Source: Pseudomonadales bacterium
Lineage (GTDB): Bacteria; Pseudomonadota; Gammaproteobacteria; Pseudomonadales; Azotimanducaceae
Direction: 5' to 3'
NCBI GenBank assembly: GCA_017854255.1
Contig: JAFMIA010000009.1
Span: forward strand, 1 to 64,000
Length of the DNA: 64,000 nucleotides
The translations under genes were made by a program, and so were the position numbers. Shown here piece by piece: positions 8,285-48,247 of this stretch. The notes beneath the pieces are model-generated. The model saw only the letters and a program-made list of their open reading frames with translations. It searched no databases and was not told the origin of the DNA. Each line of letters begins with the position of its first letter. The stretch's first letter is position 1.

Positions 8285-8360
8285 GGGCCGTTAGCTCAGT
8301 TGGTAGAGCAGTTGGCTTTTAACCAATTGGTCCCGCGTTCGAGTCGCGGACGGCCCACCA
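8285..8360 (+). tRNA. tRNA-Lys (anticodon TTT)
   Basis: A 76-base cloverleaf: acceptor GGGCCGT pairs with ACGGCCC, D-stem GCTC/GAGC, anticodon stem GTTGG/CCAAT with loop CTTTTAA (anticodon TTT at positions 34-36), T-arm GCGTTCGAGTCGC region, discriminator A and an encoded CCA end at 8358-8360. In pseudomonads tRNA-Lys also lies beside queC/nadA, so the position is conserved. Confidence 0.97.
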
Positions 8361-45918: not shown

Positions 45919-46245
45919 GTGCGTTGCAATCATCAAGACAAATGGCAATTCAATGGAGAAAAGCGCTTGGCACCAACAACCTTGCAGAGCGAGCATCGCG
46001 GCGCAAAACTTGCCCTCATCTATCGAGCTGATGGTCATGCCCAGCTCATCATCAATGGCCTGGTTCGAGACGAAGGCCGAAGCTTGACCCGACTCAAACT
46101 ACAGAGCGTCGTTCAAACAGACTATGAATGGCATGAGCAAATTAGCGGAACCTTCGAGCGCAAAGATCAATCGGTTCGACTCACGTTAATGATGAGCGAG
46201 GTAGAAATCGCATCCGGCGACTTCGATTTGGGATCAGAGGCCTGA
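45919..46245 (+). CDS. Hypothetical protein upstream of PNPOx-like gene
   Basis: A 108-residue predicted protein with alternating strands (for example KLALIYRADGHAQLIINGL and SVRLTLMMSEVEIASGDFDL) suggesting a small beta-sandwich or barrel. GTG start at 45919. The stop and the next ATG overlap in TGATG, so it is coupled to the flavoprotein gene. No recognised family. Divergent from the small coiled-coil gene with 49 bases between starts. Confidence 0.55.
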   Translation: MRCNHQDKWQFNGEKRLAPTTLQSEHRGAKLALIYRADGHAQLIINGLVRDEGRSLTRLKLQSVVQTDYEWHEQISGTFERKDQSVRLTLMMSEVEIASGDFDLGSEA

Positions 46246-46832
46246 TGCACATTATCGAGCAGCTGCAATCTGACCAGATGGCCGCCAATGGGCAACAAGA
46301 TCCAAACGCCAACGTCTGTTTTTTCTCGACGGTGGATGCCACCGGCTCACCCCAGGTGCGGACGCTGGTTTTACGTCAAATTGCCGAGACAACCATCACC
46401 CTATTCATTAATACCAGCAGCCCGAAATGGCAACAGCTCGTAAAGCAACCGCGCTGCCAGGCACTGCTTTGGTATCCCAGCCTCCAAATCCAATATCGCT
46501 TGAGCGGAATCGCAGAAGCCTTGGCCAGCGACGCGATCCAAGACAATTGGCAGAAACGCCCCCTGCGCGCGAAGCTTTTGGACTATTTTTATGACAGGAC
46601 GGCCCCGCAAAGCAGTCCTATGACCTCCCGAGCTGGACTGCTCGAGCAATTTGAGGCTTTGTCACAACGCGTTGCGCCGGAGGACTTAAAACCGAGCAGC
46701 GCCGCCATTGGACTGTCTGTTCAGCTTGATCAAATTGAACGCCTGGACCTGTCTCAAAACGATTTACCCCACGAGCGCACTTTGTTTGAGCGATCCGAAA
46801 ACGGCTGGATTGCGACGGCGCTCGTCCCGTAA
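46245..46832 (+). CDS. FMN-binding pyridoxamine-phosphate-oxidase-like protein
   Basis: A 195-residue split-barrel flavoprotein resembling the Alr4036-type PNPOx group. The barrel has VCFFSTVDATGSPQVRTLVLR (about 24-44), TLFINTSSPKWQQLVKQP (about 52-69) and ALLWYPSLQIQYRLSG (about 73-88); the C-terminus is not the classic R-x-H of PdxH, although LSQNDLPHERTLFERS gives a partial match. So it may oxidise pyridoxamine phosphate or a similar substrate. Length is shorter than E. coli PdxH (218). Confidence 0.72.
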   Translation: MHIIEQLQSDQMAANGQQDPNANVCFFSTVDATGSPQVRTLVLRQIAETTITLFINTSSPKWQQLVKQPRCQALLWYPSLQIQYRLSGIAEALASDAIQDNWQKRPLRAKLLDYFYDRTAPQSSPMTSRAGLLEQFEALSQRVAPEDLKPSSAAIGLSVQLDQIERLDLSQNDLPHERTLFERSENGWIATALVP

Positions 46833-46854: not shown

Positions 46855-46883
46855 TTGACTCCGGGCTTGATTGGACTTACATT
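46855..46883 (+). promoter_or_regulatory. Sigma-70 promoter of the 46.9 kb RNA
   Basis: TTGACT (46855-46860) and TACATT (46878-46883) are 17 bases apart, close to consensus. The -35 box begins 23 bases past the stop codon of the flavoprotein gene, so it is a new transcription start. Confidence 0.7.
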
Positions 46884-46889
46884 TTTACC

Positions 46890-47076
46890 CGAGTTTAAAG
46901 CGCAGACGTTCTAACCAGGGGGAACCTCCAGCGCGCCTTTTAATCCCCTGACCGCAAAGGAGGTGATCCCATCAATAGTCAGTCTATGAGGGGCGCCTCC
47001 GAGTTAAATTAACTCGGAGTCCGCTCCCAAACGTTAAGACAGAGCCCCAAAGTGCCTTGGCATTTTGGGGCTTTTT
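46890..47076 (+). ncRNA. Candidate structured RNA with 16S-tail complement
   Basis: About 187 bases between a promoter and a strong terminator, with no usable gene. It contains AAGGAGGTGATCC (46957-46969), the exact complement of the 13-base tail region of 16S rRNA. Upstream ACCTCC (46924-46929) can pair with GGAGGT (46959-46964); CAGGGG (46916-46921) can instead pair with CCCCTG (46945-46950), so two mutually exclusive folds are possible. A third hairpin is CTCCGAGTTA/TAACTCGGAG (46997-47019). Downstream of the complement the only ATG is 20 bases on and opens an 8-codon frame. I match it to no known RNA family. Confidence 0.55.
47043..47076 (+). terminator. Rho-independent terminator of the 46.9 kb RNA
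   Basis: AGCCCCAAAGTGCC TT GGCATTTTGGGGCT is a fourteen-base-pair stem (one G-T) with a tight loop, followed by TTTTT (47072-47076). It ends the candidate RNA and any read-through from the flavoprotein gene. Confidence 0.93.
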
Positions 47077-47223: not shown

Positions 47224-48147
47224 TTAAAGGGCCTCAATTCTTTTGATGCCAGCCAGATGATTGAAGCAAGTTGATATCGCAGTACTCAAGAACTCTTGCA
47301 TAAAAGGATCCTCGAGTTGCTCGCGACGGACGGCGGCGTAAAGTCGTCCCCAAAGGCCGTTTTCCGACAATCGTTTCGCGGTGAGTAACTCGTTTGCCAA
47401 GTACTCGGTCAAAGCCCAATTGGGCAGACAGGCAACACCTCGACCGCTTGCGACCAATTGCACCATCATTGGCGTGAGTTCGGCATTTCGAATTGAAGCT
47501 GGGTCGACCCCGGCCGGGTCTAGAAACTGGGTAAAAACATCCAACCGGTCTCGATCAACGGGATAGGTGATCAAGGTTTGATCCGCCAAATCCGATGGAT
47601 CGATAAAGGGCTTCTGGCTCAATGCGTGGCGATTCGACACAGCCAGCATTGCTTCGTATTCGAACAGAGGCTCGTAATGAATATCGGGTAGGTCAATCGG
47701 GTCCGAGGTGATCACGAGGTCAAGATCCCCCCGCGCCAAAGCCGGCAGCGGCGTAAAACTAAATCCGCCGATCAAATCCAATTCCACTTCAGGCCAATTT
47801 AGACGATAGGCTTCGATACAGGGCACCAGCCACTGAAAGCAAGAATGGCACTCAATACAAATATGCAGCCGACCGGTCTCGCCCAGTGTTAATCTTGCGA
47901 TGTCTCGTTCAGCCGCTTTAAATTCGGGCGCGACCAGATCCGCGAGCGCCAGTAACCGGCGACCGGCACTCGTGAACCGAGGCGGCTTAGTTTTACGAAC
48001 AAACAGCGTACAATTTAATCGATCTTCAAGATCCTTAATTTGGTGTGATAAGGCTGATTGCGTTAAGTGCAGGACCTCCGCGGCCTCAACCAAGCTACCC
48101 GTTTCCCGGAGCGCCATTAACGTTTTTAAATGTCTCAGTTCAAGCAT
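47224..48147 (-). CDS. metR: LysR-family methionine regulator MetR
   Basis: Activator of methionine genes that senses homocysteine. The start at 48147 gives MLELRHLKTLMALRETGSL, closely like E. coli MetR; 307 residues. Helix-turn-helix spans about 5-65 (EVLHLTQSALSHQIKDLE). The ligand-binding half shares IECHSCFQWLVPCIE, GDLDLVITSDP, TYPVDRDRLDVF and GLWGRLYAAVR with MetR, which makes the assignment strong. Likely controls methionine synthesis genes elsewhere; the riboswitch-regulated metZ is 10 kb away. Confidence 0.93.
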   Translation of the reverse strand: MLELRHLKTLMALRETGSLVEAAEVLHLTQSALSHQIKDLEDRLNCTLFVRKTKPPRFTSAGRRLLALADLVAPEFKAAERDIARLTLGETGRLHICIECHSCFQWLVPCIEAYRLNWPEVELDLIGGFSFTPLPALARGDLDLVITSDPIDLPDIHYEPLFEYEAMLAVSNRHALSQKPFIDPSDLADQTLITYPVDRDRLDVFTQFLDPAGVDPASIRNAELTPMMVQLVASGRGVACLPNWALTEYLANELLTAKRLSENGLWGRLYAAVRREQLEDPFMQEFLSTAISTCFNHLAGIKRIEAL

Positions 48148-48247
48148 GTTTTGCAGATGATTAAAGTTCATGTAAATACTACTAGATCAAGAAGAAAATT
48201 CAATTACCTGCCTCGATTTCCTCAATACACCCATCCTATGCCGACTG

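Follow-up and report, generated by a model that had tools for sequence, protein, structure and literature searches.

A stand-alone RNA with an extended Shine-Dalgarno sequence, a predicted pseudoknot and a putative AUC start codon in mostly marine Gammaproteobacteria

Introduction

What is a bacterial transcription unit for that holds a long complement of the 16S rRNA tail and no conventional gene? The question is raised by a locus in the window, that is, the 64,000-nucleotide stretch analysed here (Pseudomonadales bacterium, assembly GCA_017854255.1, contig JAFMIA010000009.1, positions 1 to 64,000). An initial annotation, made from the sequence alone, described a stand-alone RNA unit meeting the 16S tail and offered two readings, an RNA controlled by a fold switch or the decayed leader of a lost gene. 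In the following sections, we compare the element across genomes and weigh what it may do.

The Transcription Unit and Its Neighbours

The unit lies on the forward strand and is bounded as follows:

46855 to 46883, + strand: predicted sigma-70-type promoter, TTGACT-17-TACATT (9/12 consensus match; boxes aligned in same-genus relatives)
46890 to 47076, + strand: predicted transcript of about 187 nt (span from promoter to terminator, kept in relatives)
47041 to 47076, + strand: intrinsic terminator, a hairpin ending in T5 (hairpin and T-run; strong covariation)

The near-consensus promoter of the initial annotation was found as described, with 0.4 sites of that grade (9/12) expected per 600 bases in shuffles, and alignment of the same-genus relatives keeps TTTGACA and TAAATT-like boxes in register. 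Its strong terminator was likewise recovered: in the hairpin, whose extent was set from the alignment, 8 of 15 pairs are altered on both sides among relatives. The element RNA has a folding energy of -76 kcal/mol as compared to -52.8 for shuffles (z = -5.3). Upstream, on the same strand, lies a pyridoxamine-phosphate-oxidase-like gene (46245-46832), and downstream a convergent LysR gene (47224-48171).

A 108-aa ORF without a Pfam match (45919-46245, + strand) has homologs close to the element in other genomes of the family; these form a cluster of 19 ORFs (c6), and it is 33-36 % identical to those at loci L016 and L018, so that by sequence it appears to be a conserved small protein to which Pfam assigns no function.

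Distribution and Relation to Known RNA Families

By BLASTN against 58 genomes, the element was found in 13 of 14 other genomes of the same genus as well as in four more genera of the window's family. Twelve homologs of this set served to build a covariance model (R1), which, together with a scan of public genome contigs for the 17-mer AAGGAGGTGATCCCATC, gave at least 67 true homologs above 42 bits, including records named Pseudohongiella, OM182, and K189A. Of the 207 genomes in the window's family, 62 match a broader model (R2, 49 sequences) above 43 bits; in a second family of the same order, 69 of 137 do so above 80 bits. A sample of 369 genomes of the class gave a few further matches in other families, and with the searches that extended it the element or relatives of it are counted in about eight genomes from four families beyond these two. 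The initial annotation had left room for a peculiarity of one strain, a doubt that the more than 130 genomes recovered by covariance search remove. A pattern scan of 398 genomes of the phylum gave only the window's copy and apparent chance matches, as judged by sequence. The sample is dominated by MAGs, and several matches (L172, L210-L212, L216, L255-L257, and a weak one in G1334) were left out as chance or too weak. As far as sampled, the element is patchy and confined to few gammaproteobacterial lineages, its carriers forming a group of mostly marine bacteria.

Rfam 15 covariance models gave no match at E<=1 between 46000 and 48000 and only sub-threshold chance matches on relatives, and none of the papers searched describes such an RNA family. 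The element appears to be an undescribed family, conserved and outside Rfam, which agrees with the initial annotation, whose author knew of no family with this plan. Two familiar RNAs were considered and rejected as the element's identity: neither 6S RNA (RF00013) nor tmRNA (RF00023) matches there, and the genome has its 6S RNA at C90:10185-10362 (71.6 bits) and its tmRNA at C22:17236-17597. Across the whole window, the sole Rfam match at the gathering threshold is a tRNA (8285-8357, + strand).

A Conserved Fold

Three structural features precede or follow the ribosome-binding site:

46900 to 46934, + strand: P1 hairpin, outer stem GCGC 46900-46903/46931-46934 and inner stem GTTC 46908-46911/GAAC 46922-46925 (covariation)
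46916 to 46950, + strand: pseudoknot helix, loop CAGGG 46916-46920 with CCCTG 46946-46950 (pairing in 99.2 % of cells)
46991 to 47028, + strand: 3' domain, closing stem 46991-46996/47023-47028 and hairpin CTCCGAG 46997-47003/CTCGGAG 47013-47019 (mostly invariant, two covarying pairs)

In the alignment of 49 sequences, all twelve pairs of the outer and inner stems of P1 covary, each being altered on both sides in some relatives, with a covariation score of 0.321 as compared to 0.197 in shuffles and at most 0.114 for slid versions. The outer stem reads GCGC/GCGC in the window, TGTTAG/CTAGCA in the second family, and CGTGC/GCACG elsewhere; the inner stem is GTTC/GAAC. Since the CAGGG loop and CCCTG, which is positioned a few bases 5' of the Shine-Dalgarno sequence, stay complementary in 99 % of cells, P1 and this helix are predicted to form an H-type pseudoknot. 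CAGGG/CCCTG is nearly invariant, so its support consists of pairing kept through A-U/G-U change, without two-sided covariation, and is weaker than that for P1's two stems. In the 3' domain, the closing stem GGGAGC/GCTCCC surrounds the hairpin CTCCGAG/CTCGGAG, in whose upper part the stop codon of a short reading frame sits (see below). The window's genus has one mismatched pair in the closing stem, and the second family bears one further hairpin inside the domain. An alternative helix proposed by RNAalifold (53-58/113-118) was discarded as weak, with a single covarying pair.

The fold switch put forward initially did not withstand this comparison. An ACCTCC that could mask GGAGGT is indeed present (46924-46929) and is shared by many relatives, but it is absent in many others, so masking was dropped as a conserved principle. 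CAGGGG/CCCCTG, described as an exclusive alternative fold, is there as well and its CAGGG/CCCTG core is kept, but as the conserved pseudoknot helix.

Ribosome-Binding Site, Start Codon, and Reading Frame

Downstream of the pseudoknot follow the parts that would meet the ribosome:

46957 to 46969, + strand: extended Shine-Dalgarno sequence AAGGAGGTGATCC, a 13-base complement of the 16S tail (sequence match; conserved 14-mer)
46971 to 46973, + strand: putative AUC start codon (codon tally in homologs; AUG in this position in related elements of three other families)
46971 to 47012, + strand: 13-codon frame ATC AAT AGT CAG TCT ATG AGG GGC GCC TCC GAG TTA AAT TAA (kept stop position)

The 13-base complement noted initially is confirmed as the only exact copy of AAGGAGGTGATCC in the 64 kb, the chance of such a copy being about 0.002 by simple counting, with 1.15 expected when two mismatches are allowed. 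The match was drawn against a 16S tail that we take to be GGATCACCTCCTT; in the window's family, the 16S 3' end is presumably GTAGCCGTAGGGGAACCTGCGGCTGGATCACCTCCTT. A tail pattern with GTAACC, as in E. coli, was found in 0 of 121 cases in the family, most likely because the order has GTAGCC instead, and this count is given no weight. The 14-mer AAGGAGGTGATCCC is present in 102 of 118 unique homologs (80 loci had been selected with that 14-mer). No other part of the element is as well conserved as the ribosome-binding site, and the core AAGGAGGTGATCCCATCAATAGTCA is near-invariant and looks single-stranded.

The initial annotation saw no start codon at working distance, which holds for ATG, GTG, and TTG but overlooks ATC 46971-46973, which follows GGAGG at a spacing of exactly 7 bases, as is usual for a start codon. 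GGAGG-N7-ATC/ATT recurs in nearly all homologs; a long 16S complement at working distance from AUU or AUC is the layout of a non-canonical start with an extended Shine-Dalgarno sequence. Among 106 loci of the two main families fetched without requiring a codon, the position holds ATC in 91 and ATT in 15, and ATG, GTG, TTG, or ATA in none; this tally leaves out the 80 loci listed from the 17-mer scan, which had been selected with ATC, and is drawn from models built on ATC-bearing sequences. One locus (L246) has GTT instead of ATY and a spacer shorter by one base. Genus g46 of the window's family (L171, L250-L254) carries a diverged form with an AUU start, an 8-base spacer, peptides of the type INSPxxIxGAS(R/S)VAS, and TAG or TGA as stop. 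A conventional in-frame start upstream was considered and rejected, being confined to 43 scattered homologs of the 118 and lacking in the other 75.

Among 38 divergent homologs (<60 % identity downstream of codon 10), 37 have their first stop after 13-15 codons, as compared to a mean of 5.1 and a maximum of 12 in 2000 shuffles. The other two frames have scattered stops and no comparable signal, and TAA, TAG, and TGA all occur as the frame-ending codon. The start position is kept, and so is a stop at 13-15 codons, whichever of the three stop codons is used; we conclude that translation very probably begins at AUC/AUU and ends at a controlled place.

Related elements in three other families have ATG at the start position (GGAGG-N7-ATG) and mostly a shorter 16S complement; they are remote (R2 E-values 2e-10 to 2e-5) and would encode MSNECINGASGGTC, MSNRCIIGAPGGTC, MSHRCIIGFSGGAC, MSNRCMYRTSGGTC, MSNDSMCAASGATC, and MSNGCIEVLTG. 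Peptides such as MSNRCIIGAPGGTC at L205-L208 and L213-L215 often have two cysteines and a GGTC-like end. A search for the AUG type in plasmids, phages, and E. coli gave no match. These relatives may represent the ancestral form, and it is on them and on the stop position that the case for probable translation rests. In a fourth other family, the 1.3-Mb genome with L209 (around 1501-1640) has an ATT start and ISIYLKSGSGGFAF with TTGGAGGTGGTCC; this AUU version suggests an old or a repeated origin of non-AUG starts.

Proposed Working and Alternatives

The comparison of genomes shows a conserved transcription unit together with its stems, Shine-Dalgarno sequence, start-codon position, and stop position; the function of the element we infer. 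In our preferred reading (probability about 0.6), it is a stand-alone structured mini-mRNA that engages the 30S subunit via an extended Shine-Dalgarno sequence and a weak, IF3-sensitive start codon. IF3 discriminates against start codons of the AUU/AUC class. The 5' H-type pseudoknot would keep the ribosome-binding site presented, and the 30S subunit would dock through up to 13 base pairs with the 16S tail. Initiation by fMet-tRNA at AUC/AUU, seven bases past GGAGG, would be poor (as at AUU in infC) and presumably sensitive to IF3 and to free 30S, upon which the ribosome would read 13-15 codons into the hairpin and terminate there. The output would be ribosome engagement and not the peptide: the RNA would hold 30S, report on IF3 or free 30S, or have its 3' hairpin opened by the terminating ribosome in a way that alters its fate. 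Such engagement appears to explain the element best, because apart from this site and a short peptide that is not conserved it contains nothing.

One alternative is a decoy, in which annealing over 13 bp holds the 30S subunit, the weak codon stalls the onward step, and the short frame releases leakers. A complement far beyond the usual Shine-Dalgarno length, kept in the 102 of 118 unique homologs given above, suits this idea, as do AUC/AUU but never AUG in 106 loci, a peptide not conserved as a protein, and a unit that stands alone. A decoy would, however, require abundant RNA, and the AUG and mostly shorter complement of the relatives in three families suit ordinary translation, so we regard it as possible but on balance unlikely. 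An RNA dedicated to gauging or holding free 30S or IF3 is put forward tentatively and with somewhat lower expectation: the 13-base catch and the IF3-disfavoured AUC/AUU would together report on or buffer the initiation machinery, without a functional peptide.

A micropeptide gene, with a 13-15 residue product (INSQSIKGASxxx; MSNRCIIGAPGGTC in relatives) whose level is set by the weak start codon, would account for an open frame of fixed length and for the comparable peptides encoded at this position in other families, which have GASG-like cores and a terminal Cys; it is kept alive mainly by the GASGGTC-like ends of the AUG relatives. The pattern of substitution points the other way. On a tree of 103 sequences, 26 of 104 changes in codons 2-10 are synonymous (0.250 as compared to 0.250 expected), hence no excess of synonymous change, and this frame does no better than the other frames. 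An apparent coding constraint in pairwise counts, which had counted shared ancestry repeatedly, vanished in the tree-based count and was discarded. Codons 6 and 7 are the most variable, codons 8-10 (GGA GCC TCC) are also held by the 3' stem, and the residues right before the stop are almost random. The kept features are the start position, the extended Shine-Dalgarno sequence, the folds, and the stop position. Because synonymous change in codons 2-10 is at chance level, the peptide is unlikely to be the selected product, and the micropeptide gene is a doubtful candidate.

Less probable still is a trans-acting small RNA, in which the exposed GGAGGTGATCCC, or GCCTCC of the 3' stem, pairs with other RNAs and the frame is incidental. 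The stand-alone unit with promoter and terminator and the near-invariant, single-stranded-looking core would fit, but one would expect neither a stop position that stays in frame while the stop codon itself changes among three nor a start position common to the AUG relatives.

With its order of pseudoknot, Shine-Dalgarno sequence, short ORF, and terminator, the element is reminiscent of a leader-peptide attenuator. The gene that follows it in the window's family is mostly a convergent LysR gene, with 64-72 % identity in a comparison of four relatives. A different gene is the most frequent one downstream in the second family, also convergent in most genomes, and the AUG-type elements adjoin other genes again, those downstream being convergent or distant. 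A co-directional gene downstream was found neither in the window nor at most other loci, whose neighbours are convergent or distant and unrelated. The initial annotation would have taken a conserved short ORF past the complement as the mark of a leader; such an ORF exists, but there is nothing downstream to lead into. Since the downstream neighbours are convergent or distant and differ between families, a transcriptional or translational leader is for practical purposes excluded, and so is the decayed leader of a lost gene suggested at the outset, since conservation extends to more than 130 genomes and includes stems that covary and stops that are kept; we consider either very improbable.

Comparison with Known Systems

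If ribosomes do initiate on the element, it would offer a compact natural test bed for the handling of AUC and AUU by IF3 and for the benefit that a cell draws from an mRNA with an unselected peptide. Gene finders that require ATG, GTG, or TTG will miss such units.

The closest parallel to the start site is found in S. aureus, where an extended Shine-Dalgarno sequence accompanies conserved non-canonical starts in cvfC1 (AUU), ccpN (AUA), and infC (AUA) (PMC13009471). These AUU/AUA starts give about 10 % of the AUG yield (PMC13009471, 2026), and E. coli infC and pcnB are cited there as starting at AUU. The S. aureus genes share with the element a long start-proximal Shine-Dalgarno sequence and a conserved weak class of start codon. 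However, the S. aureus and E. coli cases are ordinary proteins inside mRNAs, whereas the element is a pseudoknotted stand-alone RNA of ~190 nt with 13-15 codons and mostly AUC.

SgrS, RNAIII, and Spot 42 are dual-function small RNAs that carry a short frame. Like them, the element is a small RNA with its own promoter, covarying terminator, and short frame, translation of the latter being deduced from the stop position; unlike them, its peptide seems unselected, its conservation is highest at the ribosome-binding site, and its start is not AUG. Pseudoknots at ribosome-binding sites of long regulated genes are known from rpsO/S15 entrapment and from the preQ1 and SAM-II riboswitches. These, too, have an H-type pseudoknot next to or over the Shine-Dalgarno sequence but precede a long regulated gene, whereas the gene of the element would be the mini-frame itself.

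Minigenes that trap ribosomes or tRNA are reported, e. g., in axe-txe (PMC8708949). Minigenes resemble the element in a very short frame and a strong Shine-Dalgarno sequence. Minigenes are usually shorter than the element's frame and AUG-started, and a pseudoknot or conserved fold is not part of their definition. Finally, tmRNA (RF00023) also has a short frame that follows a pseudoknot and closes within a hairpin; the element, unlike tmRNA, is without a tRNA-like domain. What the element brings together, in one gene with nothing else, is a conserved non-AUG start, an extended Shine-Dalgarno sequence, and a predicted pseudoknot.
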